Assembly: GCF_013348785.1 (NCBI RefSeq)
Contig: NZ_CP054691.1
Span: 372,001 to 436,000 of the forward strand
Source of the DNA: Gordonia sp. X0973
Lineage (GTDB): Bacteria > Actinomycetota > Actinomycetes > Mycobacteriales > Mycobacteriaceae
Length of the DNA stretch: 64,000 bases
Reading direction: 5' to 3'
Below, piece after piece: positions 3,172-13,934 of the stretch (positions within the stretch are counted from its first letter, which is position 1; each line of letters opens with the position of its first letter). The notes under the pieces are model-generated. The model searched no databases. It had not been told where the DNA came from and was given only the letters and a program-made list of their open reading frames with translations. The position numbers and the translations under genes were made by a program.

Positions 3172-3936
3172 TCAGCCTTGGTCCTCGTCGGGCGCCGCAT
3201 CGCGTCGGCCCTCCCGGAGTTCGGCGATCTCCGCGCGCAGCGCGCGCACCTCCTCGGTCAGGGTGAGTACCGCCTCGTGGGTCTGCTCCTCGGCCTCCTC
3301 GGTTTCTTCGAGTGCCTGCACCAGCCACGACGCCACGAATGCCGTCGCGACACCGAGCAGGGCGATCCCGGAGAACATGAGCACGACGGCGATGAGATGT
3401 CCCGTCGTCGTCTGCGGGATGCGGTCCCCATACCCGACCGTCGTCATCGTCTCGACCGCCCACCACAGGCCGTCGCCCACCCCGTTGATGGTGGAGCCCG
3501 GACGTCCCCGCTCGGCGTCGGTGATCGCCAGCGAGGCGACGATCAGCAGCAGGAGTGCGCCGCCGCAGGCGTAGACCGCGACCCGACCGCGCAGCGACCG
3601 GGTGCCGGCGCGGTTGAGGACGGAGAGCAGCGTGATCAGGCGCAGCATCCGGAACGGCCGCGCGATCGGAACGATCAGGATGACCAGGTCGAACAGGTTG
3701 TGGGTGAAGAAGTATCGCCGGTCCTTCGCGCGCAGCAGTCGGATCAGGTACTCGGCGATGAAGATGACCCACACCACCGCGGTCACGATGTCGCAGATCA
3801 GGCGGGCCGTCGGGTCGAGGTGGGTGTTGAGGATCGGGATGGCGTAGGCGGCGAGGAACGCCAGCGCGGCGACGATCATCAGCCATTCGCCGGCGTGGGA
3901 GGAAAGGCTGCGCCGGACGGCCCGTCGTGCGTTCAC
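3172..3936 (-). CDS. Voltage-gated-type potassium channel subunit
   Basis: A 254-residue inner-membrane protein of the six-helix Kv-like channel superfamily. The selectivity filter TVGYGD is intact (about residues 166-171). It is preceded by four to five hydrophobic segments and an S4-like arginine-bearing helix (about 93-110, RPFRMLRL) and followed by the pore-lining helix. The last 50 residues form a glutamate-rich amphipathic coiled coil that probably drives tetramer assembly. It should pass potassium selectively; whether it responds to voltage is not shown by sequence. The GTG start is the first usable one, but the SD-like GGGAGG touches it directly, so the true start is not certain. It converges on holB. 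Confidence 0.85.
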   Translation of the reverse strand: MNARRAVRRSLSSHAGEWLMIVAALAFLAAYAIPILNTHLDPTARLICDIVTAVVWVIFIAEYLIRLLRAKDRRYFFTHNLFDLVILIVPIARPFRMLRLITLLSVLNRAGTRSLRGRVAVYACGGALLLLIVASLAITDAERGRPGSTINGVGDGLWWAVETMTTVGYGDRIPQTTTGHLIAVVLMFSGIALLGVATAFVASWLVQALEETEEAEEQTHEAVLTLTEEVRALRAEIAELREGRRDAAPDEDQG

Positions 3937-4110
3937 CCTCCCAGCTTTTCAGACCGCACCCGTCGGCACGGCGGTCCGGGCGGCGTGGCTACCCGAAACG
4001 TGCGGCGATAGATGCGCGAGGACGTGCGCGACCAGTGGGTGAATGCCCTCGGCAAAGAGATAAGACCGGGTTGGACCGCCGCTGGAGCGATGGTCTACCC
4101 GGTCTCTCGG
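3937..4110. other. Chromosomal spacer left of the integrated element
   Basis: About 175 bp between the potassium channel start and the displaced tRNA fragment. I see no gene here. Before integration this stretch would have lain directly downstream of the intact tRNA-Thr gene. Confidence 0.6.
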
Positions 4111-4152
4111 AGCCGCCTAGGAGAATCGAACTCCTGACCTATTCATTACGAG
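4111..4152 (-). repeat. attL: displaced 3' part of host tRNA-Thr
   Basis: These 42 bases repeat the 3' part of the tRNA-Thr gene at 13862-13903. They run from the discriminator base through the T arm to the anticodon loop. The last 20 (4133-4152, cctgacctattcattacgag) are identical to 13884-13903 and form the crossover core. There are three differences, at 4118, 4122 and 4132; the last two face each other in the T stem and are compensatory. No 5' half is present, so this is not a functional tRNA but the chromosomal half left behind by integration. Confidence 0.9.
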
Positions 4153-4173
4153 ACAGCCGAACCACGTGTTTCG

Positions 4174-4301
4174 TCGTATGTGAACATGTCGCGATGACGC
4201 AGGTATGCGCACGTCAGAGGTGTTTTCATCCTCCGATGTACACGCCTCGTATGTGAACACATCAGCACATCGTGTGCACACAGTTCCGAACATCTGTTCG
4301 G
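4174..4301. repeat. Left-end repeats, candidate integrase arm sites
   Basis: The 13-mer tcgtatgtgaaca occurs at 4174-4186 and 4247-4259. The segment tatgcgcacgtcag (4204-4217) recurs with one change at the other end of the element (13842-13855), and gtgtgcacacag (4272-4283) resembles 13801-13813. A hairpin with CCGAAC/GTTCGG arms spans 4286-4301. Shared short repeats next to both att cores fit arm-type sites bound by a tyrosine integrase or its directionality factor. Confidence 0.5.
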
Positions 4302-4382
4302 ATTCCTGAGCGACTTGTCTTACAGTCCTCTCGTCAACCACCCAGTGTGACGCCGCTCACACCACGACGCAGGAGCAACGAC

Positions 4383-4688
4383 ATGACCGCACCCAAAGCA
4401 CCGCTGACCGCTCGCGAAGTCGCCGAGCGTGTGGGCACCGATCCCAAGACGTTCCGCGTGTTCCTACGCGCCAACGCCATCCCCAAGTCCGATGAAACCG
4501 GGCGCTACGAGTTCAAGGCTGGCGATGTCGCCAAGCTCAAGAAGCAGTTCACCGCGTGGAGCGAACACCGCACAGAGGCACGCGCCGCAGCCAAGGCCGC
4601 GAAGGAAGCAGCCACGCCCACACCGGCCGATGACGACGATCACTATGGCGATACTCCGTTCGATGAGCAGGACAACGACGACGCGTAA
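4383..4688 (+). CDS. Small helix-turn-helix protein with acidic tail (satellite left end)
   Basis: A 101-residue protein of unknown role. An N-terminal helix-turn-helix (LTAREVAERVGTDPKTFRVF, about residues 8-27) is followed by a GRYEFKAGDVAKL segment, an alanine/lysine helix and a strongly acidic C-terminus. The ATG at 4383 has AGGAG 7 nt upstream; earlier in-frame codons lack a ribosome-binding site. It is the only gene pointing away from attL at this end, and it is followed by its own terminator, so it is transcribed alone. This is the position where satellites often carry accessory genes. Its N-terminal half resembles that of the protein at 5087-5431 (HTH followed by GRY), so the two may be distant paralogues. 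A DNA-binding regulator is the likeliest role. Confidence 0.8.
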   Translation: MTAPKAPLTAREVAERVGTDPKTFRVFLRANAIPKSDETGRYEFKAGDVAKLKKQFTAWSEHRTEARAAAKAAKEAATPTPADDDDHYGDTPFDEQDNDDA

Positions 4689-4706
4689 CGCACCGCTCCG
4701 AAAGAA

Positions 4707-4733
4707 GCCCTCAGCACGAAGCTGAGGGCTTTT
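4707..4733 (+). terminator. Rho-independent terminator
   Basis: A perfect 9-bp stem (GCCCTCAGC / GCTGAGGGC) with a 5-nt loop is followed by TTTT, 18 nt after the stop of the small HTH gene. It would also keep this transcript out of the opposing HNH gene. Confidence 0.9.
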
Positions 4734-4778
4734 CTCGTGGTCGCGTGCATGTGTGAACATGCAACGACAACGCGGGTG

Positions 4779-5087
4779 TTACCCCTCGTCTGCGCGTAGA
4801 TACGCGGGGTGTGGGCCTGCGTCGAATCGCCCGTTCTTGCGCTGATTGCGCGCCTTGGCTTGACCGCCTTCACGCCCGGTCTTGCGGTTGTGGCATGACG
4901 CGCACAGTGCCCGCAGGTTGGATAGTGAGTGGTCGTCGTTCGGCACGATGTGATCGACGTGGGACGCCACACCACCGCACTCCGCGCATGTGTGGTTGTC
5001 GCGGTGAAGCACCACCAACCGTAGGCGTTTCCAATTGCGCGGCAATCGTTCTCGACGCCCCGATGTGTACTTGCTCGGTCGAGCCAT
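4779..5087 (-). CDS. HNH endonuclease
   Basis: A 102-residue HNH nuclease. Two zinc-binding cysteine pairs (CAEC and CASC) flank the core DHIVPNDDHSLSNLRALC, giving the catalytic histidine and the asparagine of the HNH motif, followed by HNRKT. The ATG at 5087 is preferred over that at 5102: GGAGG lies 8 nt before it, and the ATG shares a base with the preceding stop (TAATG). In HK97-like phages and capsid-forming satellites a small HNH protein next to the head genes assists the terminase in genome cleavage. That role is inferred here from position, as the last gene of the capsid operon. No large terminase is encoded, so it would have to work with a helper's. Confidence 0.9.
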   Translation of the reverse strand: MARPSKYTSGRRERLPRNWKRLRLVVLHRDNHTCAECGGVASHVDHIVPNDDHSLSNLRALCASCHNRKTGREGGQAKARNQRKNGRFDAGPHPAYLRADEG

Positions 5088-5431
5088 TACCCGCACCTCC
5101 ATGTACTCACGAGCGACATCAGCCGCTCTTCTCGTTGAAACCTCATGAGCGTGAACGCTTCCCGAAACTTCGGATCACCCAACGCGTCGAGGGGTAGCCC
5201 TGCGTGATCGGGGAGCCTGCATGTGTCCACACCGCAGCCGTCGCTGGCGACGTCTGACGCGCGATTCGCAGTAATGTCACGTACTGGCTGATTCAGACGC
5301 GTGTGGGCGTCCTCGGGTAGCTCTACGTAGCGACCTGTGCGATCAGTCGTGACGATGCCCGCCGCTGCCGCTCGTTTGCGTAGCTTCGTCGTCGTGACCC
5401 CGAGTTGCTTGGCAAGTTCGGGAAGGGTCAT
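5087..5431 (-). CDS. Small helix-turn-helix protein in the capsid operon
   Basis: A 114-residue protein I cannot assign. The N-terminus (TLPELAKQLGVTTTKLRKRA, about residues 2-21) reads as a helix-turn-helix and is followed by GRYVELPEDA. The remainder is polar and ends in a charged helix (FREAFTLMRFQREERL). It overlaps the upstream adaptor gene (ATGA) and the downstream HNH gene (TAATG), so all three are translationally coupled. A DNA-binding protein beside an HNH nuclease and capsid genes could be a small-terminase-like factor that recognises the satellite's packaging site. That is inference from position, and the protein is short for a small terminase. It could equally be a regulator. Confidence 0.75.
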   Translation of the reverse strand: MTLPELAKQLGVTTTKLRKRAAAAGIVTTDRTGRYVELPEDAHTRLNQPVRDITANRASDVASDGCGVDTCRLPDHAGLPLDALGDPKFREAFTLMRFQREERLMSLVSTWRCG

Positions 5432-5772
5432 TCGCCGTAGACCCCGGTGTGGCGATCCTCCGTGTCATTCAGGAATGGATGGACAGGCAGCCCTCTCCTG
5501 CGAGTGGTGAGCCGCTGAGTGCGGTGCCCTGGCCTCGCGCACACGCGGTGTAGGGACTGCACCTCGTCGAGCGTGAATATGTGCGGGCCATCTGTGGTTG
5601 CCCATCTCAAGATCGCAACTCTGAGAATGTCTTTCAACGTTGCGACTTCCTCGGGAGTCAGACTCGCCGCTCTGAGTGGAGGCGCTACGCGGCGAGCGCG
5701 TACCCATGCCGCAGTGATCAGGTCTTCGCCGACCTCGATGTCGAAGTCATCGGTTGTGATGGGATTCCTCAT
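5428..5772 (-). CDS. Candidate head-to-tail adaptor (HK97 gp6-like)
   Basis: A 114-residue protein from the satellite capsid operon. The central part (AAWVRARRVAPPLR … TLKDILRVAILRWATTDGP, about residues 21-63) has the spacing of helices seen in actinophage head-to-tail adaptors. In those, an arginine/proline-rich turn is followed by a helix ending in LRxAILRW and a glycine-proline segment. In phages this protein forms a ring between the portal and the stopper. No portal or tail gene is present, so if the assignment is right this adaptor must join a self-made head to a helper's portal or tail. It overlaps the next gene by ATGA. The call is family-pattern recognition, not a database result. 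Confidence 0.5.
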   Translation of the reverse strand: MRNPITTDDFDIEVGEDLITAAWVRARRVAPPLRAASLTPEEVATLKDILRVAILRWATTDGPHIFTLDEVQSLHRVCARPGHRTQRLTTRRRGLPVHPFLNDTEDRHTGVYGE

Positions 5773-5801
5773 GTCGAAAGTCCTTGTCTATGAATGACTG
5801 T

Positions 5802-5841
5802 GCCCACACACCCGGTTCTGCACCGTTCCGAGTGTGTGGGC
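5802..5841 (-). promoter_or_regulatory. Strong hairpin between capsid-operon genes
   Basis: GCCCACACAC (5802-5811) and GTGTGTGGGC (5832-5841) form a perfect 10-bp stem with a 20-nt loop. It sits between the 48-residue gene and the adaptor gene, with no T tract on either strand. It may protect the 3' end of the abundant capsid mRNA or weaken read-through into the lower genes. Confidence 0.55.
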
Positions 5842-5847
5842 GATCAG

Positions 5848-5994
5848 TCAGCGCCGACGACGACGTTTGCCGCCGAGTGGGCCGATCTTCGCGTTCTTGA
5901 CCAGAGGCGTGTAGTGCTTCTTGGTCCAGCGAATGCCGACGTTCATGTCTGCTGTGCGGCCTCGCGGTGTGACCTTGCCTTCGAGACGTGGCAT
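5848..5994 (-). CDS. 48-residue basic protein downstream of the capsid gene
   Basis: A very small protein starting at the ATG one base after the TGA of the capsid gene, with a GAGG sequence from the end of that gene as ribosome-binding site. It is markedly basic and ends in GGKRRRRR. It holds a short VGIRWTKKHYTPLVKNA segment rich in aromatic and lysine residues. Tight coupling to the major capsid gene suggests a structural or assembly role in the head, such as an internal DNA-binding or decoration peptide. I do not recognise a family. The open frame upstream of this ATG is antisense-like extension over the capsid gene and was not used. Confidence 0.65.
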   Translation of the reverse strand: MPRLEGKVTPRGRTADMNVGIRWTKKHYTPLVKNAKIGPLGGKRRRRR

Positions 5995-5995
5995 G

Positions 5996-6838
5996 TCAGG
6001 CCTCCTCGATGGTGAACGTGCCCAAGCGATTCGCCCGAGGCACGACGTGACCGAGTCGCCACGTTGCACGGATCGCGATGCTGTCCGAGTTGAAGTACGC
6101 GTCGGTGCTCGTCGCGAGGTTGATGTCGCCGTAGGCGCTGATGACCTCGGTGGGGTCAATCACAAGACCCGTGCTCACGGTCATGGAGGGGCTGACGATC
6201 ACGCGACGGTCGAGCAACTGCTGTACCGCGTCGCCCACACCGGCACCGACCAACGACTCGTTCGATCCGGTCGCGGTCTTGAGCTTGCGGATCGCTGCCC
6301 ATCCGACCGGGTCGAGCACGATGAGCGATGGCGTCGCGCCGTTCGCCTCCAGTTCTGCGATCAAGTCCACGATGGGGTCGAGGTTTGTGGTCACCTCGTC
6401 ACCCGCGACGACGCCTGTGGTGTTGAGTAGACCCGCGACGGGTGCGACCGCCGGCGACGTGGGCGCGACCTGTGCGAGGAACGCCTCATTGGCCTTCTTG
6501 GTGATCGCACGCTTGAGCGAGGTCGACAACTGATCGTTGGTACCCGGCTGCATGTACTGCTCCATGGAGAGCTTGATGAGTTGGGTGACCTTCGCCGTAT
6601 GCACGAGCGCTTCCGAGAGCACCGGGTCCGACTCAGGGATCACCTCGGCCTCAGCCGAGAACTGTGCGTCGTCGTCGGTCACGTACGCGACGCGAACCGA
6701 GGGAGCGTCACCTTCGACCTTGCCGCCGAGAGTGGACGCCTGAACGATCAGCGCCTCGGGAATCTCATCGACAGGCGCGAAGGTGTTTACGTCGGGACGC
6801 CACGCCTGCGGCGAAGTCCCAGTCTTGATGGTTGCCAT
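5996..6838 (-). CDS. Major capsid protein, HK97-like fold
   Basis: A 280-residue phage-type major capsid protein. An E-loop-like stretch (AEVIPESDPVLSEALVHTAK, about residues 63-82) leads into the spine helix beginning LIKLSMEQ. The P-domain contains PSLIVLDPVGWAAIRKLK, and the A-domain carries DRRVIVSPSM and GLVIDPTEVISAYGD. It has no N-terminal protease/delta domain, so it probably relies on the separate scaffold-like protein upstream. The ATG at 6838 has AGGAG 6 nt upstream. The gene opens a short transcription unit with the 48-residue protein, the adaptor candidate, the HTH protein and the HNH nuclease. A large inverted repeat precedes it. It would allow the element to build its own head rather than remodel the helper's. 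Confidence 0.85.
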   Translation of the reverse strand: MATIKTGTSPQAWRPDVNTFAPVDEIPEALIVQASTLGGKVEGDAPSVRVAYVTDDDAQFSAEAEVIPESDPVLSEALVHTAKVTQLIKLSMEQYMQPGTNDQLSTSLKRAITKKANEAFLAQVAPTSPAVAPVAGLLNTTGVVAGDEVTTNLDPIVDLIAELEANGATPSLIVLDPVGWAAIRKLKTATGSNESLVGAGVGDAVQQLLDRRVIVSPSMTVSTGLVIDPTEVISAYGDINLATSTDAYFNSDSIAIRATWRLGHVVPRANRLGTFTIEEA

Positions 6839-6851
6839 ATGTGGCTCCTAA

Positions 6852-6949
6852 TGTGAAAGGGGCAGGTCGTGCCCCGGATATCCGAGAATCAACAGAAGGC
6901 TGAAGTTCTGCCGATTCATTCCGAAGCGAGGACCTGCCCCTACTTCACA
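6852..6949 (-). promoter_or_regulatory. Long inverted repeat in the capsid-gene leader
   Basis: The arms 6852-6868 and 6931-6949 (TGTGAA … AGGGGCAGGTC and its complement) pair over 17 bp with a 2-nt bulge, around a 62-nt loop. In the minus-strand mRNA the 3' arm ends just before the AGGAG ribosome-binding site of the capsid gene, so folding could limit access to it. A protein-bound operator or packaging signal is also possible. Confidence 0.6.
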
Positions 6950-7037
6950 CAGCCACTGACCGTGTTGAGCACATGATTGCACAATGGGAGCGCCAAGCCG
7001 TAATGTCGGCGTGCCGTCACGATATAGAGTGCAAGAG

Positions 7038-7065
7038 AGGCGCCTAGGTTCAATCCTAAGCGCCT
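7038..7065 (-). terminator. Hairpin, possible second terminator
   Basis: AGGCGCCTAGG and CCTAAGCGCCT form an 11-bp stem with one mismatch and a 6-nt loop. On the minus strand it is followed by CTCTCTT, a weak pyrimidine tail. It lies about 40 nt beyond the first hairpin, as a backup terminator might. Confidence 0.4.
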
Positions 7066-7104
7066 ATTGATGTCGATATGCGGAATGACTGCGATATCCG
7101 CCAC

Positions 7105-7135
7105 AAAGGGCCTCAGATTGTCGCTGAGACCCTTT
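7105..7135 (-). terminator. Terminator-like hairpin after the zinc-finger gene
   Basis: AAAGGG(C/T)CTCAG arms (7105-7116 and 7124-7135) form a 12-bp stem with one G·T pair around a 7-nt loop, starting about 5 nt after the TAA of the 37-residue gene. The minus-strand stem ends in CCCTTTGT. It would separate the scaffold transcript from the capsid transcript. Confidence 0.6.
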
Positions 7136-7140
7136 ATGGA

Positions 7141-7254
7141 TTACTTCGTGTTTCGATGTTCGAGCTTGCATTCCACAGAACAGAACTTGAGCTGGCGCGC
7201 GACGAGTCGCTTACCGCAGTTCAGGCAGAATAAGTGCCTCCGCAGACCAGACAT
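7141..7254 (-). CDS. 37-residue zinc-finger protein
   Basis: A short gene with a strong ribosome-binding site (GGAGG, 4 nt before the ATG at 7254) and a TAA stop at 7143-7141. The product has two cysteine pairs, FCLNCGKRL and FCSVECK, spaced C-x2-C-x11-C-x3-C, a clear treble-clef or zinc-ribbon pattern, and a basic C-terminus. Such mini zinc fingers are common beside phage head genes, where their role is usually unknown. It follows the scaffold-like gene by about 80 bp and is closed by a hairpin. Codon use, ribosome-binding site, cysteine spacing and terminator together support a real gene despite its size. Confidence 0.7.
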   Translation of the reverse strand: MSGLRRHLFCLNCGKRLVARQLKFCSVECKLEHRNTK

Positions 7255-7333
7255 CGAACCTCCTTAGAGTCGTTGAGAATTGGGACCGCACACTCGCGGA
7301 CATGGTCAGCGCCAACGCCTACAGGCCGCCCGG

Positions 7334-7858
7334 CTACTCCTCGATGGGGTCAGCCCCCTGGGTGTCATCCGACTTAGGTGCCCGTGCCCTCGCAGGTGGG
7401 CCGACAGTCGTACCGCCCCCGAACCCGTAACCCGCTTGCAGGTTGTCGGGATGGAGTGCAGCCGCGAACCCGCTGCTTACCTGCTCACGGTCGACCTCGC
7501 TGCCGTACTGCTGTCCCTGAGTGGGTGCAGCCATAGGAGCGCGTGGGCCTTCGGGTATTCCGAACATCTCACGCGTACCCACAACGGCATCGCCGACCGC
7601 TTCTGTGTCGATTGCCCCATCGTCGGTCAGCAACTCACTTATGCCGCCATCACCGAGCGCAGCCCAGAATGCTTTCGGGTTGAGGTCTCCGATCATGCCT
7701 TCGACCATTTGCTTCTGCAGTCCCTCGACCACACCGGCCAGCCGTTCGACCTCGGCGCGTGCCTCGTTACGTTCGACGCGATACCTCGCCTCACGATTGC
7801 CCTGCTGCTCATCACCCGGTTGCTGTGTATCACGGCCATCCGTGCTACTGGTTGTCAT
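7334..7858 (-). CDS. Scaffold-like protein of the capsid module
   Basis: A 174-residue acidic protein. Residues about 25-60 are a charged coiled coil (YRVERNEARAEVERLAGVVE, then LQKQM). It continues as DLNPKAFWAALGDGGISELL, then a GAIDTEAV segment and a proline/glycine-rich tail. This layout of coiled coil, tryptophan-bearing loop, acidic DDGxID segment and low-complexity end is that of the putative scaffolds found just before major capsid genes in actinophages. The ATG at 7858 has AGGAG 9 nt upstream; a TTG at 7885 is possible but lacks one. It overlaps the upstream coiled-coil gene by 14 bp. Scaffold function is inferred from composition and position. Confidence 0.65.
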   Translation of the reverse strand: MTTSSTDGRDTQQPGDEQQGNREARYRVERNEARAEVERLAGVVEGLQKQMVEGMIGDLNPKAFWAALGDGGISELLTDDGAIDTEAVGDAVVGTREMFGIPEGPRAPMAAPTQGQQYGSEVDREQVSSGFAAALHPDNLQAGYGFGGGTTVGPPARARAPKSDDTQGADPIEE

Positions 7859-8066
7859 TGCGTTGTGCTCCTGCCTCTTCGGCAACGTCGATCAGATGGT
7901 TGGTTGCAGACACGACTGCTGACCGCAGGTTGTGTAGCATCAGGTCCTTGTCGTGAAGCTGCTTCTTTGTGTCGCGCAGTTCTTTACGTAACCGTGTGTT
8001 CTCCACACGCTCAGCCTGTAGCGCACGCATGCCGCCTGCCCCAAGGCATTCGGGTTCGCCCGTCAC
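7845..8066 (-). CDS. Small coiled-coil protein of the satellite
   Basis: A 73-residue protein dominated by one charged helix (LQAERVENTRLRKELRDTKK onward, then LHDKDLMLHNLRSAV) that should form a coiled coil. The GTG start shares GTGA with the stop of the upstream gene, and its 3' end overlaps the scaffold-like gene, so three genes are coupled here. I recognise no family. A co-scaffold or a factor interfering with helper head assembly would fit the position, but the sequence shows only a coiled coil. Confidence 0.65.
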   Translation of the reverse strand: MTGEPECLGAGGMRALQAERVENTRLRKELRDTKKQLHDKDLMLHNLRSAVVSATNHLIDVAEEAGAQRNDNQ

Positions 8067-8341
8067 TGGTCCTCCACCACACGTGCAGCGCTGACGTAGT
8101 ACGGCTTCTTCTCTTTCTCGACCACGAACTTCCCGACGTTGCCCCGTCCATCCGCAACAGGGATATGCACTTGGTGCGCGAGGTCCCCGCGATCCTCGGG
8201 CAACAGAGGAGCGGGAATGTCGCCGTGTCGAATCTGCTCGACCGTGCGAACATCTGCACTCTCGCCCACACCACCGGGCGTGTATTCCACGATACCGTTC
8301 CTGATATCTTCGATCAGATCGTCAACTGGGTTGTTTGCCAT
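8063..8341 (-). CDS. Hypothetical satellite protein
   Basis: A 92-residue protein with no family I can name. The ATG at 8341 has GGAAA 6 nt upstream; the longer open frame has a hydrophobic start without a ribosome-binding site and was rejected. It contains an acidic helix (NPVDDLIEDIRNGIVE), then EQIRHGDIPAPLLPEDRGD and a beta-rich, lysine-rich end (VGKFVVEKEKKPYYVSA). It is the first gene of the scaffold operon and lies just downstream of the candidate origin, separated by about 100 bp. It overlaps the following gene by GTGA. Confidence 0.6.
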   Translation of the reverse strand: MANNPVDDLIEDIRNGIVEYTPGGVGESADVRTVEQIRHGDIPAPLLPEDRGDLAHQVHIPVADGRGNVGKFVVEKEKKPYYVSAARVVEDQ

Positions 8342-8652
8342 CACGTTTCCTTTTTCTCGATCTCCGGCCTCGTGCCGAAGAAGTAGGGTCGGCGATGGGA
8401 GCAGAAGGGAAAGGAGCCACATTCACCATCGCGGTAAATGTCGTGGGCGGCATGGAAACCTCCCGCTCGACCATCGCCGATAAATCAATCATCGCACCAC
8501 ACGCCCGCGCGCATTATGCGCGAGCGCGAGTGGACAAGATTGGTGACGCTGCTGACGCTAAAAATGAACCCCATCATCGCGTGCGCACATGTGCCAGCGT
8601 GCGCGTGCGCGATCACTGAGTGTGAAATTATCGTCAGCAGCGTCACCACTTC
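8342..8652. other. Candidate replication origin of the satellite
   Basis: A 311-bp gene-free stretch directly after the helicase gene. It holds a perfect 16-bp inverted repeat (8542-8557, ggtgacgctgctgacg, and 8632-8647) 74 bp apart. Between the arms is an alternating purine-pyrimidine run (about 8578-8614, rich in GCGTGCGC). A near-palindrome CGCGCAT-T-ATGCGCG lies at about 8508-8522. P4-type primase-helicases bind repeats beside their own gene to start replication, so this is the best origin candidate. No iteron array is obvious. Confidence 0.45.
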
Positions 8653-10059
8653 TCATTCCTTCAAGGTCAAACCTGCATGTAGGGCACCATTTTTGGTGCG
8701 ACGTGAGGGGTATCCCATGTCGTCCAGTATCTTGGTCAGCCACTTGTCAGATCGGACTTCCTCGTCGGCCTCGGCACACCAGTCAATCCACTTGGGGTAC
8801 AGCTCTTTCAGCAAGACCTTGGATGCCTTGCTCTGGTCGCATCGCTCTTCGATGAACCGCAGAACCGGGTTGGCTTCTCGACGCCACTTGTTGACCCGCT
8901 TGGTTACTGCGTGCGGTTCGACCAGATGACCCGCGTTGCGGTATCGGTGGTACGCATTGACGAGACTTGTCAGGATTACGTCGGCTTCACCCTTGAGTTT
9001 GTTAGCGAGTCCCGGGTCTCGCTCTTCGGCGCTGAAGTAGCGCGGGAACTCGATAACCTTGAGCCGATCCCACATGGCAGCCTCGACGCCCACGACCTGG
9101 GGCAGGTGGTTGGTTTCCAAGAACAGGCTGTCGCTCGGGTCCCATTCCATGTTGTCTTTGTAGAGCTTTCGTGCGCGACGCCGGTTGCCCCCGGTGAATC
9201 GCTTGACCAGCGACTCATTCAGATACTTGCCGGACTCGGATTCGGACGAGATGCCGACACGTGCGCCCTTGAGGTCGGCCTCGCCGGTGGTATGGGCTTT
9301 GGTGTCCTTCTTCATCAGGAGGTCTGTCTCAAGCTGGATACCATAGTCGCCTACAGTGTTCAGGATCGACAATGCGAACACGCCCTTGCCATTTCGGCCA
9401 CGCCCAAGCAGGATCACGAGTATCTGCTCAACCACCTCGCCCATCAGTGCGACGCCGCACACCTGTAGCAGGTACTCGATCACGTCCTCGCCCGGCAGTA
9501 CCTGATGCAAGAACTCGTCCCACTTGCTGCCCTCGACCGTCAAGTCTGCGACGTAGTTGCCCGCAGTGATCTTCGTCAGTAGGTCCGCGGGTTCGTGGTC
9601 CTTGATCTCCAGCGTGCGCAGGTCCAACGTTCCGTTCGGTGTATTCAGCAGATGGGGTTGAGCATCGAGCTCGTCGGCGTTCCGGATGAGCGCTGGCTGT
9701 TCACGTGCGACCGACAGAATACCTCGCAAGTTCGGGGCTGTGCTCATCCGCGACAGTTCGGTGATCGCCTTCTGCTTGCGCGCGAGCATAGCCTTAGTCT
9801 CGGCGTCGTCCTTGCCTTCCTCGGGCATGTCCCGTGCCTTCAGCATCTCCTGCTCAATCATCTTGGAGGCAAACCGAATACCGCGTTCACCTGCCTTCCA
9901 GTGCGTGCCTGACCAATAGAACCACCCCAGTTCCTCGACGTACATGAGGCGATGTCCGTAGCGCGCGATCAGCATGTGCGCGTACTTGATGTGGTTCGCC
10001 ATTTTGCGTGCAAGCTGGCTGTGCGTGAGTTCCCCAGTGTTATTGTCGTTGTGCGTCAT
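8653..10059 (-). CDS. P4/D5-type superfamily 3 replicative helicase
   Basis: A 468-residue protein of the phage/plasmid primase-helicase group. An N-terminal D5-like domain (FYWSGTHWKAGERG near residue 50; LLNTPNGTLDLRT near 140) precedes an SF3 helicase core. Walker A is GRGRNGKG (about 219-226), motif B is GISSESESG and motif C is LFLETNHLP. A winged-helix-like end contains VRSDKWLTKILDDMGY. It should unwind the circular satellite genome during replication. The ATG at 10059 follows the primase stop by 4 nt with an AAGGAG just upstream; the longer frame overlaps the primase gene and was rejected. The catalytic primase domain is separate, in the next gene upstream, rather than fused as in phage P4. 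Confidence 0.9.
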   Translation of the reverse strand: MTHNDNNTGELTHSQLARKMANHIKYAHMLIARYGHRLMYVEELGWFYWSGTHWKAGERGIRFASKMIEQEMLKARDMPEEGKDDAETKAMLARKQKAITELSRMSTAPNLRGILSVAREQPALIRNADELDAQPHLLNTPNGTLDLRTLEIKDHEPADLLTKITAGNYVADLTVEGSKWDEFLHQVLPGEDVIEYLLQVCGVALMGEVVEQILVILLGRGRNGKGVFALSILNTVGDYGIQLETDLLMKKDTKAHTTGEADLKGARVGISSESESGKYLNESLVKRFTGGNRRRARKLYKDNMEWDPSDSLFLETNHLPQVVGVEAAMWDRLKVIEFPRYFSAEERDPGLANKLKGEADVILTSLVNAYHRYRNAGHLVEPHAVTKRVNKWRREANPVLRFIEERCDQSKASKVLLKELYPKWIDWCAEADEEVRSDKWLTKILDDMGYPSRRTKNGALHAGLTLKE

Positions 10060-10063
10060 AACT

Positions 10064-10948
10064 TCAGATGTCTCCTTCGGATGCCCCGGCCAGTCCGTAC
10101 CTGGCTGGGGTTTCTGGTTTCCAGCAGCGGTGTAGGTCAGCGACCGTTTCCGCGTCATCGAACTTGTCCCCCGTCGCGGGGTGATCGAGCAGCACGCCGA
10201 GTGTCTGCTCCTTCGTCAGGCCGTACTCCTGACACATGCGGATGAGCTTGAACGTCAACCGATGTCGTCTCACGCCACCCGAATCACGTTCACGCAGCAT
10301 CCGTTCAATCTTGCGGCCCTCATACGAGACGCTGAGATCGCCGTAGGGCTCCGCCTGCAACGTCACCGCAGTCGATACGTGCACCGGGGCGGTATGGGCG
10401 TGTACAACCGACCTCAGCGTGCCCAGCGCAACGACGTTGCCGATGCGAACACGTCGAACCGGTCTAGGTGGGTCGTACTTGTGATTCAGCGATCCCGGCA
10501 CGCGGAGGAACCCGCCTCCGTACTTACCGCCCTCGGTGACCCACATCGCGCGATACAGACCCTTCGCCAACTCCTTGAGTTCAGCCCACGGAAGTATCCG
10601 GTCGATCTGCACATAGACGTGGTAGTGCCCCGGCGACCCGGACGACACGAGCGTGGGGTCTACCTGACGTAGAACAGCTTTGGCGTGCCCATACCCGCCC
10701 GGTGCTACCTGATCCACCTCGAACGCGATGCGATCAGACGGCAAGCACAGGTCCGGACCCTCGCTGTGAGTCGGCTCCGTGCGTCGATAGATGGATCGGT
10801 AGATGTCGCGGCCCTCACCCGACCACAGGCGCAACACCTTTCGAGCCTCGGCCTCGCTTGTGGGGTATCGAGACTCCCACACACCGCGCTGGTGCGGATC
10901 GCTGAGGTCGCGATCTCGCACACTGGCGATAGCTATATGGTCGGCCAT
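10064..10948 (-). CDS. AEP-type (RepB-like) primase
   Basis: A 294-residue protein with the signature of archaeo-eukaryotic-type primases of plasmids and satellites. It has AFEVDQV (metal-binding acidic residues, about residue 65), SGSPGHYHVYV (S-G…H-x-H nucleotide-binding motif, about 90) and GFLRVPGSLNHK (about 135-146), the RxPGTxNxK-like motif that closes the active site. A PriCT-like helical end follows. It should make the primers for satellite replication alongside the SF3 helicase that follows 4 bp later. The ATG at 10948 shares ATGA with the upstream stop; the longer open frame runs back through that gene and was rejected. The family assignment is by motif. Confidence 0.8.
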   Translation of the reverse strand: MADHIAIASVRDRDLSDPHQRGVWESRYPTSEAEARKVLRLWSGEGRDIYRSIYRRTEPTHSEGPDLCLPSDRIAFEVDQVAPGGYGHAKAVLRQVDPTLVSSGSPGHYHVYVQIDRILPWAELKELAKGLYRAMWVTEGGKYGGGFLRVPGSLNHKYDPPRPVRRVRIGNVVALGTLRSVVHAHTAPVHVSTAVTLQAEPYGDLSVSYEGRKIERMLRERDSGGVRRHRLTFKLIRMCQEYGLTKEQTLGVLLDHPATGDKFDDAETVADLHRCWKPETPARYGLAGASEGDI

Positions 10949-11535
10949 CAGAACGGCACCCCACGAACTCGCCACAGGTGAACGTCGGCGTTCGCATCCT
11001 TGAACACCCGCGCAACGCGTCCCGCATCCGACCGCGTGGGAAGCACCCACTGCTTGCGCTGCGGGTCCCACCGACCGCGCCCGTACTCCTTCACCAGAGC
11101 GATGGCACGCACGTCGTACTCAAAGCCCGCGACCCAACTCCCGTCGTGGCGTTCGGTCAGATCGAGAACGAGAGTGCGCCGAGGGGCGGGCGGTACTGCG
11201 ATCACGACCTCGGCGCCACGTGTGAGCGGTGTGTCCTGGATGAAGCCAGGACTACGCGGGAACGCACGACCCCGCACCTTGACTTCGGGTAGCGCGCACA
11301 TCTCGGGGTAGCGCTGGCGCCACCAGTTCTTGGTATCCCAGTCGGGCTTGGATGCCCAGATGCGCGAGCGCACCAACACGCTGCCGTCTGCGCCTTTGCC
11401 TATCACCTCGAAGTCGGTATCTCGGTACTTCGCGGGTAGGCCGTTGCTGATGCGGACCAGCGGCTCGAACTTCTTGGTGAACCTCACGTAGGGATACTCA
11501 GAAATGTCGGCACGCGACTGCCTGAGAGTCCTCAC
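10948..11535 (-). CDS. Satellite protein with HARP-like C-terminal domain
   Basis: A 195-residue protein of uncertain role in the replication operon. The C-terminal third (VRAIALVKEYGRGRWDPQRK, then QWVLPTRSDAGRVARVF) has the spacing of the HARP domain of SMARCAL1-type annealing helicases: aromatic anchor, K-x-x-x-GRxWDPxxKxW, then a helix. The N-terminal two thirds contains KNWWRQRYPEM and a beta-rich stretch I cannot assign. A HARP-like module next to primase and helicase suggests recognition of forked or single-stranded DNA at the origin. This is inference from one motif. Start GTG shares GTGA with the upstream stop; the downstream primase overlaps by ATGA. Confidence 0.65.
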   Translation of the reverse strand: MRTLRQSRADISEYPYVRFTKKFEPLVRISNGLPAKYRDTDFEVIGKGADGSVLVRSRIWASKPDWDTKNWWRQRYPEMCALPEVKVRGRAFPRSPGFIQDTPLTRGAEVVIAVPPAPRRTLVLDLTERHDGSWVAGFEYDVRAIALVKEYGRGRWDPQRKQWVLPTRSDAGRVARVFKDANADVHLWRVRGVPF

Positions 11536-11849
11536 GCAACCTCACCACCGAGCAGTGCGAGCAGCTTGTCTCCTCGGATGCTGTACATCTTTGACGGGTC
11601 GATATCCGAGGCTGGCTGTGTGGGCGTGGGTGCTGGATTCTCGCTCAGCCCCAGATAGTCGAGCAGGTCCGACTTCTTGATCTTGAATCGGTTGCCGACC
11701 TTGTGCACGGGCAGTGGGAACTCACCGGCTTGATTCAGTCGGTACCCGTGCAGTCTCGACCACCCGAGTGCTCGGCTGGCTTCCTCGATACCCACTACCT
11801 GCGGTAGCGCATGGATCTCATCGACGGTCATGGGGTTCTTGATCGCCAC
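11532..11849 (-). CDS. Xis/AlpA-like helix-turn-helix protein
   Basis: A 105-residue protein whose middle part (GIEEASRALGWSRLHGYRLN, then FPLPVHKVGNRFKIKKSDLL) is a winged MerR/excisionase-type helix-turn-helix. The GTG at 11849 is preferred because GGAGG lies 5 nt upstream; the ATG at 11885 has no such site. It is the first gene of the leftward operon and faces the repressor gene across a 96-bp control region. In phage satellites this place is held by a recombination directionality factor or an activator of excision. The C-terminal 40 residues (PTPTQPASDIDPSKMY onward) form an unusual extension. Confidence 0.8.
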   Translation of the reverse strand: MAIKNPMTVDEIHALPQVVGIEEASRALGWSRLHGYRLNQAGEFPLPVHKVGNRFKIKKSDLLDYLGLSENPAPTPTQPASDIDPSKMYSIRGDKLLALLGGEVA

Positions 11850-11881
11850 GTCATCCTCCTTCGTATAGTTGATTGACGTAT

Positions 11882-11945
11882 TCACGACCGTACACGATCA
11901 CGACCATCAGAACCACATATGTACGACAATGTAGAATCCTGATCT
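11882..11945. promoter_or_regulatory. Divergent control region of the satellite
   Basis: This lies between the leftward replication operon and the rightward repressor-integrase operon. The octamer TCACGACC occurs at 11882 and 11898, and the palindrome ACATATGT at 11915-11922. TAGAAT (11932-11937) lies 8 nt before the repressor ATG and could serve a leaderless message. These are candidate operators for the repressor and Xis-like protein. Confidence 0.5.
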
Positions 11946-12497
11946 ATGAACACAACCGGAATTGCCGTCGGAAGAAATCTCAAGCGAATCCGCGTGCAAG
12001 CAGGTGATAGCCAGGCGGAATGCGCCTCGAAGGTCGCTCATCTCGGCTTGAACTGGGCGCAGTCGCATGTGTCGTCAATCGAGGGCGGTCGTCGGCGTGT
12101 CGTCTCGCTCGATGAGCTGCTTGTGTTGTCGTCCGTGTACGGCGTCGCACTGGCTGAGTGGTTCGCAGGTGACGATGACGTGCAGGTGACCGACGACCTA
12201 ACTATGCCCACATCGACCGTGCGCGAGTGGCTATCGGGAACGACACCGAGTGTCGCAGTCGTGGACTTCGAACGCGTGCAAGACTATTCCGCTGATGAGA
12301 GCATCGCTCGACGCCTGAAGATGTCGCGTGAGCAGGTGACCGAGATAGCGACACGTATCTGGGGTCACCACGCCACGATCGAACGCGACCAACGTCTGGC
12401 CGAGAAGCACCCCGAGATCACCGATCCCGCGAAGCTGCGCAATCACCGAGCAGGCATGACGCGCCGCCTCGCTGATGAGATCGAGTTACGAGCATGA
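11946..12497 (+). CDS. XRE-family repressor of the satellite
   Basis: A 183-residue protein with an N-terminal Cro/CI-type helix-turn-helix (VGRNLKRIRVQAGDSQAECA … VSSIEGGRRRVVSLDEL, about residues 8-60). It is followed by a linker and a charged C-terminal helical part (LKMSREQVTEIATRIWGHHA … RLAEKHPEIT). It lies divergent to the Xis-like gene, as the master repressor does in phage-inducible islands, where a helper protein removes it. It shares ATGA with the integrase, so both are translated from one message. No LexA-type cleavage site or peptidase domain is visible, so induction by the SOS response is unlikely from sequence alone. Confidence 0.85.
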   Translation: MNTTGIAVGRNLKRIRVQAGDSQAECASKVAHLGLNWAQSHVSSIEGGRRRVVSLDELLVLSSVYGVALAEWFAGDDDVQVTDDLTMPTSTVREWLSGTTPSVAVVDFERVQDYSADESIARRLKMSREQVTEIATRIWGHHATIERDQRLAEKHPEITDPAKLRNHRAGMTRRLADEIELRA

Positions 12498-13834
12498 CTG
12501 CGCGAGGGTCGGTGTTTCGCCGATGTGGCTGTACGAAGATCGAGGACGGCAAACGCGTGCAGCTGGGTCAGTCCTGTCCAAAGCTGAAGCGCGGCAACGG
12601 GACCTGGGCGAATCACGGGACATGGGCTTATGCGGTCGGCGTGGTCGACATCAACGGCAAGCGCAGCCTCAAGCGCAAAGCCGGGTTCGCCACCAAGGAC
12701 GAAGCGCAGGATGCGCTGGACAAGGTGCGCGCCCATGCCAGCCGGGGATTCATCGCCGACGAGCGTCTCACCGTTGAGCAGTACCTCACCGATTGGATTG
12801 CCGGTAAGACTGACATCAAGGAAAACACGCGCCAGCACTACGAGCGATACATCGAGAAGGTGTTCATCCCGCACCTGGGCACGGTGAAGCTGACTGAACT
12901 GCGACCGGCACACGTCAATCGCATGTTCGAGACGCTGAGGTCGTCCCCACAGGGCCTCAATGCCCCTGCTGCACAACGTATGCGCGCAGTGCTGCGGTCG
13001 GCGCTCACGGACGCGCTCAGGGCTGATCTTGTGACCGTCAACGCTGCTGCATTGGCGAAGGTGCCTGGTGGTCGATCACCTCGCGCGTTGGTTTGGACGA
13101 AGTCACGCGAAGACGAATGGCGTAGGGACATTGCCCGATTGGTCGCCGAGGGTCACAAGCCCGAGGACGCGCGGGGTATGGGCAAGCTCCCGTCAACGTC
13201 GATGGTCTGGACTCCGACCCATGTGGGCAAGTTCCTCGCGAACGTCGGCGACGATCCGCTGTACTTTCTGTTCTGGCTTGTCAGTCACACGGGCATGAGG
13301 CGTGGCGAGGTCTGCGCACTGCGCTACACCGATGTGAACGACGACGCGACTATCACCGTAGAGCGCCAGCTCATCAACACGCTCCATGGCGTCCGCGAGG
13401 ACACGCCCAAGACCGACGCGTCATGTCGTCGCGTGGCGATCGGGGAGGCAGGCGTCGAACTGCTCGAGCAGCACCGCGAACGTCAGGCCCGAACGTGGAT
13501 CATGGACGAGCCACCGACGTACCTGTTCTGCCGCGAGGACGGGCGCCTGTTCGACCCGATCCAAGTCACCAAGCGATTCAAGAAGCTCGCAGTGGGCGCG
13601 GACCTGCCACCGATCAGGTTCCACGACCTTCGGCACACCGCCGCGTCGATGATGCTCGCCTCAGGGCTGGACATGAAGACCGTGTCCACGGTGCTTGGGC
13701 ACAGCGACATCACGATCACCGCGAACATCTACACCAGCGTCTACGAGGACGCGACTCAGGCGGCAGTGACGAACGTCGCGGCACTCATACGAGCACACAA
13801 TGTGCACACACAGGGCGATGAGGTGGAGCAGTGA
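12494..13834 (+). CDS. int: Tyrosine recombinase (satellite integrase)
   Basis: A 446-residue integrase. The N-terminus carries a short cysteine-bearing segment (CGC … C) common in actinobacterial integrases, then an arm-binding/SAM-like domain (about 90-165) and the catalytic domain. Catalytic residues are visible: the arginine in TGMRRGE, HDLRH (H377, R380), H403 in LGHSD and the nucleophile Y413 in NIYTSV. The start overlaps the repressor stop. The gene ends 28 bp before the intact tRNA-Thr, so it acts on the tRNA core at 13884-13903. It should catalyse integration and, with the Xis-like protein, excision. The unusually long insert between residues about 185 and 245 is polar and lies before the first catalytic motif. 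Confidence 0.95.
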   Translation: MTARGSVFRRCGCTKIEDGKRVQLGQSCPKLKRGNGTWANHGTWAYAVGVVDINGKRSLKRKAGFATKDEAQDALDKVRAHASRGFIADERLTVEQYLTDWIAGKTDIKENTRQHYERYIEKVFIPHLGTVKLTELRPAHVNRMFETLRSSPQGLNAPAAQRMRAVLRSALTDALRADLVTVNAAALAKVPGGRSPRALVWTKSREDEWRRDIARLVAEGHKPEDARGMGKLPSTSMVWTPTHVGKFLANVGDDPLYFLFWLVSHTGMRRGEVCALRYTDVNDDATITVERQLINTLHGVREDTPKTDASCRRVAIGEAGVELLEQHRERQARTWIMDEPPTYLFCREDGRLFDPIQVTKRFKKLAVGADLPPIRFHDLRHTAASMMLASGLDMKTVSTVLGHSDITITANIYTSVYEDATQAAVTNVAALIRAHNVHTQGDEVEQ

Positions 13835-13855
13835 CAGCGCATATGCGCAGGTCAG
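13799..13855. repeat. Right-end repeats, candidate integrase arm sites
   Basis: tgtgcacacacag (13801-13813) and tatgcgcaggtcag (13842-13855) match sequences at 4272-4283 and 4204-4217 near the left att site. The second matches at 13 of 14 positions in the same orientation. They overlap the integrase 3' end and the gap before the tRNA. Confidence 0.5.
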
Positions 13856-13861
13856 TCATGG

Positions 13862-13934
13862 AGCCGCCCAGGGGAATCGAACCCCTGACCTATTCATTAC
13901 GAGTGAATCGCTCTACCGACTGAGCTAAGGCGGC
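13862..13934 (-). tRNA. tRNA-Thr (anticodon CGT), rebuilt at attR
   Basis: A 73-nt cloverleaf folds without gaps: 7-bp acceptor stem (U7 now pairs with G66), 4-bp D stem, 5-bp anticodon stem with loop CTCGTAA, and a 5-bp T stem with loop TTCGATT. The CCA end is not encoded. The 5' half is joined to the right-hand chromosome and is host DNA. The 3' half, from the anticodon loop on, lies on the satellite side and was supplied by the element. The core 13884-13903 is the right copy of the att repeat. The original host 3' half is at 4111-4152. Confidence 0.95.

Follow-up and report, generated by a model that had tools for sequence, protein, structure and literature searches.

A probable cos-packaged satellite with its own capsid gene, and without portal or large terminase genes, in a tRNA-Thr gene of Gordonia

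A stretch of 64,000 nucleotides from the chromosome of Gordonia sp. X0973 (contig NZ_CP054691.1, positions 372,001 to 436,000; hereafter the window) contains a 9,751-bp insertion, measured from repeat start to repeat start, in the tRNA-Thr(CGT) gene of this 3.75-Mb, single-contig Gordonia chromosome. The insertion is probably an integrated, capsid-encoding satellite that is packaged from a cos site, makes its own head and relies on an Emalynvirus-like helper for portal, terminase and tail. An earlier note, made from the letters of the window, had described a compact satellite at tRNA-Thr that brings capsid and replication genes of its own, and the analysis supports this description; the helper-like cos site and the likely helper group are additions to it. 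L and G numbers are used below as labels of the compared loci and genomes.

Absence of portal, terminase, protease and tail genes

In scans with Pfam and PHROGs, the element of the window showed no gene for a portal, a large terminase, a protease or a tail protein. With the exception of a 304-residue protein similar to archaeo-eukaryotic primases (AEP), its proteins without a confident family have at most 195 residues, and are therefore too small for a portal or a large terminase. In the relatives, the main replication-sized open reading frame (ORF) of 30 members was scanned, 24 of them with PHROGs (including the window, L035, L036 and L067) and six with Pfam only (L042, L045, L059, L063, L075 and L081); none matched a portal or terminase, and most are primases or helicases. 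Four of the 24 (L037, L039, L057 and L065) had no PHROG match at 1e-5, and Pfam gave DUF3631 for two of these, AAA_25 for one and a helix-turn-helix (HTH) type for L065 (450 residues).

In most relatives this was the only ORF scanned singly, and the other ORFs of at least 200 residues entered a tally of 121 proteins, which gives the best 25 of 106 families and leaves room for single portals. The large terminase family phrog_9 has two members in the tally: one is the control L054, and the other, which is not named there, is taken for the control L051, whose terminase was also found by PF03354. The controls were recovered, namely the large terminase (TerL) and portal of a resident prophage, and the portal, protease and scaffold of a second element that resembles the capsid-forming phage-inducible chromosomal islands (cf-PICIs). 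Searches of 15 genomes with PF04860 and PF03354 placed no hit within the elements; PF04860 is insensitive here and a poor test alone, since it missed the portals of both other elements in the host genome. A small terminase is present in two loci, L068 and WillG (phrog_1496). The earlier note had named a portal or large terminase, among the unassigned genes or in relatives, as the finding that would speak against it; protein sizes and profile scans gave neither in the element nor in the relatives scanned, and a hidden portal or terminase was rejected on the same grounds.

The capsid protein and its relatives

The AlphaFold2 model of the capsid protein has the HK97 topology (pLDDT 78, pTM 0.77), and its best Foldseek matches are D3 (2.8e-13) and HK97 (2.4e-12), nearly full length and with a TM score of approximately 0.6; the D3 capsid is also the nearest solved structure by sequence (E 2e-7). 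Encapsulins are among the Foldseek matches, and an encapsulin reading was set aside on gene context. The protein begins at the N-arm and lacks a delta domain; as the element also encodes a scaffold candidate of its own, the missing protease is probably no loss. The capsid of Emalynvirus is similar by fold only (Cozz 8eck, 16% identity). In 50,697 phage records, tblastn with the capsid gave 12 matches, all of them M. aichiense entries of 10.9-11.1 kb with 30% identity, and scans of IMG/VR, which were confined to peptide patterns, gave none in one case and one in the other.

A phmmer search with the capsid protein found 237 proteins, and 35 of 151 genomes (the host's own and relatives) match it at E 1e-3, 13 of them, the window's included, strongly (E 1e-40 or better). 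When an alignment of 35 sequences was run against GTDB contigs, it gave 26 loci, from Gordonia, Rhodococcus, Leucobacter, Mycolicibacterium, Mycobacterium, Microbacterium, Brevibacterium, Propionibacterium and further actinobacteria; L077, L079 and L080 are parts of the capsid gene only. According to gene calls made by a custom script, the common plan consists of an integrase and HTH genes, then one or two ORFs for replication, a set of small genes, the scaffold and capsid genes and a variable end, often adjoining a tRNA gene. Counts refer to 37 loci with a capsid ORF of at least 250 residues, a set that leaves out the window, WillG, the prophage loci of the host genome, the duplicates L056 and L072, and the IMG/VR contig L082. 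In 35 of the 37, the capsid gene is directly preceded by a scaffold gene of the same family, an integrase of the two counted clusters lies within 9 kb upstream of the capsid in 29, and some members carry little besides integrase, replication genes, scaffold and capsid.

Three further observations concern these relatives. L040 has a second, partial capsid ORF (10664-10999) directly upstream of the complete capsid gene. The scaffold-capsid gaps of members outside Gordonia (e.g., L057, L066, L070 and L081), inspected by eye, measure approximately 130-210 bases, often start with a GGTAGA(A/C)T-like motif and hold inverted repeats; they are possibly other packaging or regulatory sites. The single relative found in IMG/VR, L082, matches L065 and has three host tRNAs next to its end, so that it looks integrated and not free.

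Neck genes and the likely helper group

In L035, L036 and L045, the neck proteins are 45-61% identical to their counterparts in the phages Emalyn and Cozz, the adaptor of L045 being 61% identical to that of Emalyn. A search with this adaptor matched 470 phage records, most of them from Propionibacterium/Cutibacterium and Mycobacterium, and the best 12 of the 470 are 11 from Gordonia and one from Nocardia. The tail terminator of L035 has matches in 69 of the 50,697 phage records (68 Gordonia, one Nocardia). When searched against the Emalyn and Cozz genomes alone, the adaptor of the window aligned with that of Emalyn (47% over 51 residues). Head-closure and tail-terminator genes are carried by the sisters L035 and L036 and are absent from the window element; the sister L045, by its gene calls, is likewise without them between adaptor and HTH gene.

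The siphophage-type prophage that resides in the host genome (L054 and L055, at approximately 2.531-2.559 Mb) has TerL, portal, capsid and tail-like genes and is a possible helper, but not the indicated one. It was set aside in this role, its TerL and portal being 32% and 28% identical to those of Cozz, and the cos model described below found no second site in the genome.

The cos-like site

The resemblance of the neck genes to those of Emalyn and Cozz led to the examination of Emalynvirus genome ends. Six were read, and GTE2 was left out of the models, its record being without ten bases that are present in the others and that would correspond to the single-stranded overhang. With blastn-short, the joined ends of Cozz matched the gap between the scaffold and capsid genes in the window (E 6e-5) and in L045 (E 3e-6), spanning the junction in both, and the ends of Emalyn matched the two gaps alike (E 0.025). 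A profile hidden Markov model (HMM) of the five phages, run over 916 kb, placed L045 first (25.7 bits, E 7.5e-6) and the window second (15.4 bits, E 0.012), with the next site at 10.0 bits; the best scores in five Markov-randomised sets were 7.3-8.6 bits. In 59 Gordonia genomes, a sequence-only covariance model of the same phages gave the gap of L045 (29.2 bits, E 4e-6), that of the window (22.4 bits, E 4e-4) and a third site at 19.8 bits; as 54 of the 59 genomes yield at least one hit with E 1 or lower, the tail is noise. Perhaps the strongest single point for the window is that the best site of the 3.75-Mb genome falls in the scaffold-capsid gap and on the capsid strand.

The covariance model was also run over 43 sources, in which L045 (29.1 bits) and the window (22.4) were followed by L044 (14.2) and L042 (13.6). 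When the window and L045 joined four phages in the model, so that their own scores became circular, the sites that followed were those of L036, L044, L042 and L035 (19.7 to 13.4 bits). The sites of L036, L042 and L035 occupy the same scaffold-capsid gap on the same strand, and the site of L044 lies at the 3' end of its HNH gene, which is the arrangement of Emalyn; the following two, in L038 and L069 (12.0 and 8.5 bits), lie elsewhere.

Several results weigh against the assignment of the site and of its helper. The score of the window is moderate, and its HMM E-value of 0.012 falls short of the HMMER inclusion line. Pairwise, the Cozz ends reach 38.3 bits against the element among 1,167 Cozz segments, unrelated ones reach 34-35 bits and one coding segment 42.5, and the ends of Emalyn are not among its own 14 best segments. 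Searches of the gap by blastn, handicapped by the splitting of the site over the ends of phage records, found no Emalynvirus: one run returned six records, none from Gordonia, and the other 228, with one from Gordonia outside the best 15. Pattern searches of IMG/VR gave none, the first pattern being too strict for the spacing of the phages themselves and the mended one giving none either, and a genome pattern, which did not fit the core of the window's own site, hit 2 of 59 genomes (one of them L045) and 3 in the reversed control. Folded as single-stranded DNA, the site is no better than shuffles (z 1.48). As for the helper, adaptors of this family match many genera, as the 470 records attest; the adaptor of the window is approximately 33 residues short with respect to five aligned homologues and matched nothing at E 0.01 by tblastn in the 50,697 phage records; and no Emalynvirus-like prophage was seen in the host genome. 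By resemblance in sequence, the element has the cos site of a helper phage that marks cos-type satellites.

Proposed cycle and alternative explanations

An incoming Emalynvirus-like siphophage would lift repression, and the integrase and the Xis-like protein would then excise the element as a circle, which the AEP-like and D5 proteins would replicate to concatemers. The scaffold and capsid proteins of the satellite would build a small head on the helper portal. The helper terminase, perhaps with the HNH and HTH proteins of the satellite, would cut the satellite cos, and the head would be filled with one 9.75-kb genome, in the order cos, capsid, adaptor, HNH, attachment site, integrase, replication genes, scaffold. 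The adaptor and the helper neck proteins would join this head to a helper tail. By comparison with P4, one genome of 9.75 kb would suit a shell of approximately T=3 to T=4.

A head made entirely by the satellite has to be weighed against a mosaic one, in which the satellite capsid protein joins that of the helper and makes the helper head assemble at a small size. This is what is described for SaPIbov5, a cos-type Staphylococcus aureus pathogenicity island (SaPI) without its own portal or terminase, whose capsid homologue Ccm sits only in pentamers (PMC8569155). Such a mosaic is unlikely here, given that a scaffold candidate is kept with the capsid gene in nearly all the counted loci, that Ccm has a delta domain and the Gordonia protein has none, and that the Emalynvirus capsid is so distant. 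There is even less reason to think that the satellite genome is packaged through cos into full-size helper heads, interference with the helper being the main role of its capsid genes: EcCICFT073, which has a capsid gene as well as cos sites, is indeed carried in capsids of full size (PMC6092414), but in the present family the scaffold gene is kept beside the capsid gene from genus to genus, even in members with little else besides integrase and replication genes.

Decay has also to be considered. That the element is a former satellite, now immobile, is rather improbable, although the short adaptor, the missing head-closure and tail-terminator genes and a clear remnant of a related element elsewhere in the genome all point that way. 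By the first two observations, the statement of the earlier note that nothing has been lost recently is correct only in part. Against decay, the main ORFs are open and closely packed, L045 is without the same neck genes, and the cos-like site is kept. It is hardly credible, finally, that a full prophage lost its portal, terminase and tail to leave this remnant. The capsid, adaptor and HNH genes are certainly of phage type, yet relatives in several genera share the plan without portal and large terminase, which argues against a remnant of any one prophage, the attachment sites are flush and empty sites exist, and the phage records hold no close capsid relatives, the 12 matches being distant and of 11 kb.

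A satellite that makes its own head thus remains the preferred explanation for the window. For the family as a whole, a tentative proposal, for which the case is nearly evenly balanced, is that a widespread class of actinobacterial satellites makes chimeric virions, in which a satellite head sits on a portal of the helper and is served by its motor and tail, and that these satellites follow their helpers by swapping only cos and neck genes while they keep an old capsid-scaffold lineage, the interface of the Gordonia members having come from Emalynvirus.

Integration site and arrival

The element lies between 44-nt direct repeats that are identical at 41 of 44 positions (93%), the right one inside an intact tRNA-Thr(CGT) gene (13859-13934, minus strand). 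The start of 4133 given in the earlier note falls within the left repeat, which begins at 4109. The GC content per kb is 0.58-0.63 within the element and 0.65-0.74 across the remaining window.

The tRNA-Thr region was matched in 59 of 59 Gordonia genomes, and 30 loci were fetched. The right flank is common to G007 (L115) and G043 (L116), with 80-82% identity over 798 and 893 nt. A T-arm of the GGAG/CTCC type is found in the left repeat and in the tRNA 3' ends of L115 and L116; the left repeat is identical to the 3' end of L116 across all 44 nt, and the alignment with L115 (94% over 66) continues past the left end of the repeat by 21 nt. The GGGG/CCCC type belongs to the tRNA-Thr that carries the element and to 24 of the 30 loci, the window's included. 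These types identify the left repeat as the native end and the integrase-side copy as a foreign tRNA 3' end that came with the element, presumably from a host of the GGGG/CCCC type. In L117 (G040) the end of the left-flank gene is only 75 bases from the tRNA, which makes it an empty site, with the caveat that the channel gene (3172-3936 in the window) is also gone there; the left-flank protein was tried as a marker of empty sites, and its neighbours are not conserved. Attachment repeats, together with empty sites in relatives, characterise the insertion as a mobile, tRNA-integrating element.

Gene content and other elements of the host genome

The features of the element are listed in Table 1. 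Searches of Pfam and PHROGs upheld the earlier assignments of integrase, repressor, Xis-like protein, helicase, capsid and HNH nuclease. Profile matches were also found for the AEP, scaffold and adaptor calls, that of the adaptor being partial and those of the AEP and the scaffold weak, so that these last two are weaker assignments that depend partly on gene order. The family phrog_3123 has no function given and also covers the N-terminal part of the primase in the sister L036; the motifs in the AEP-like protein, recognised by eye, are presumably those of a primase. A small-terminase role for the HTH protein beside the HNH gene is a guess.

Table 1. Features of the element (window coordinates).
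Feature	Position	Strand	Basis or remark
Left attachment repeat	4109..4152		Displaced native tRNA-Thr end
HTH protein (MerR-like)	4383..4688	+	PF13411 E 0.003; phrog_66 7e-6
HNH endonuclease	4779..5087	-	phrog_333 1e-27; 46% over 70 aa vs Emalyn cos-side HNH
HTH protein	5087..5431	-	Conserved in L035 and L045
Short head-tail adaptor	5428..5772	-	phrog_1290 1.1e-7, residues 12-60 only
48-aa basic protein	5848..5994	-	67% identical in L035
HK97-fold major capsid protein, 280 aa, no delta domain	5996..6838	-	PF05065 1e-13
Possible 37-aa cysteine-rich protein	7141..7254	-	Sequence only
cos-like site	7284..7363	-	Resembles Emalynvirus genome ends; core 7309-7322
Scaffold candidate	7334..7858	-	phrog_12880 E 0.003 and gene order
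73-aa probable coiled coil	7845..8066	-	Conserved in L035, L036 and L045
92-aa protein	8063..8341	-	Conserved in L045
D5-type (SF3) helicase	8653..10059	-	D5_N 2.1e-27
AEP-like primase candidate, 304 aa	10064..10948	-	phrog_3123 5e-9
195-aa protein without family match	10948..11535	-	
Xis-like HTH protein, divergent from repressor	11532..11885	-	phrog_66 5e-4
Repressor	11946..12497	+	HTH_3 2.5e-6
Tyrosine integrase	12494..13834	+	PF00589 1.7e-24
Right attachment repeat	13860..13903		Inside tRNA-Thr(CGT); GGGG/CCCC T-arm brought by element

The second satellite-like element of the host lies at approximately 2,657,846-2,668,200 of the chromosome (L051:12847 to L052:3267), beside a tRNA-Met gene; it has integrase, repressor, TerL, portal, protease, scaffold and capsid genes, no tail gene was seen in it, and it is thus cf-PICI-like. 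At 3342265-3344558, beside a tRNA-Gly(CCC) gene, the tRNA used by L036 and L045, two stretches resemble the pair of HTH genes in the element at 79-80% identity and are clearly a remnant of a related element.

Comparison with known systems

Of the published capsid-making satellites that were found, some also encode a portal and a motor, and the others modify the shell of the helper. A satellite with scaffold and capsid genes and no portal implies that a foreign portal must fit its own head, and the choice of portal at nucleation becomes directly testable. For elements known otherwise as genome sequences, the cos match points to a culturable helper group, since Emalynvirus is grown on Gordonia terrae and G. 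rubripertincta, and the same approach suggests a way to seek helpers for phiRv1/phiRv2-like elements. In a partial search of the literature, without preprints, no title or abstract described the Gordonia element, its cos or an Emalynvirus helper. As far as seen, what is new is the helper assignment, the cos-like site and a portal-less, terminase-less plan followed through a family; the wider claim of the earlier note, that the element is distinct from described families, does not stand, as candidate PICIs of Mycobacterium and cos-type SaPIs with a capsid homologue are already in print (PMC10654092; PMC8569155).

The Mycobacterium candidates, which include phiRv1 and phiRv2, were defined by integrase and capsid, and their mobilisation is undemonstrated in the available account (PMC10654092). 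The Gordonia element likewise has an integrase and a major capsid protein in one phage-like region, and the candidates share tyrosine integrases at tRNA genes and, in some cases, helicase, scaffold or terminase genes. The accessible parts of that account contain no statement on portals and no cos or helper, and it is by this description, not by the sequences of phiRv1/2, that the Gordonia element is set apart.

Among deposited phages, the element may be compared with M. aichiense WillG (OR387121; L034), which has a distant capsid relative (29.5% over 69%), a scaffold-family gene, an adaptor and an integrase, with no annotated large terminase or portal; it differs in its serine integrase, its small terminase and a tape measure protein. 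WillG and 11 further M. aichiense records of 10.9-11.1 kb were deposited as complete phages, and WillG may be a satellite genome. Its ends matched, among phages, only 8 records of its own group, and the same literature search found no paper on these 'phages'.

Capsid-forming PICIs also make their own head and need helper tails, and encode protease, portal, connectors and both terminase subunits (described in PMC10690885); the Gordonia element has its own major capsid protein and is without its own portal, protease and large terminase. The satellites Mulch and Flayer of Streptomyces phages resemble it in being actinobacterial and in having their own capsid, scaffold and adaptor, and differ in having a portal, both terminases and direct terminal repeats, with no obvious replicase in the account consulted (PMC10690885). 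With SaPIbov5 it shares a satellite-encoded homologue of an HK97-type capsid, a helper portal and cos packaging, these last two as proposed here; no separate scaffold is described in the accessible account of SaPIbov5 (PMC8569155), whereas the Gordonia element has both scaffold and adaptor genes.

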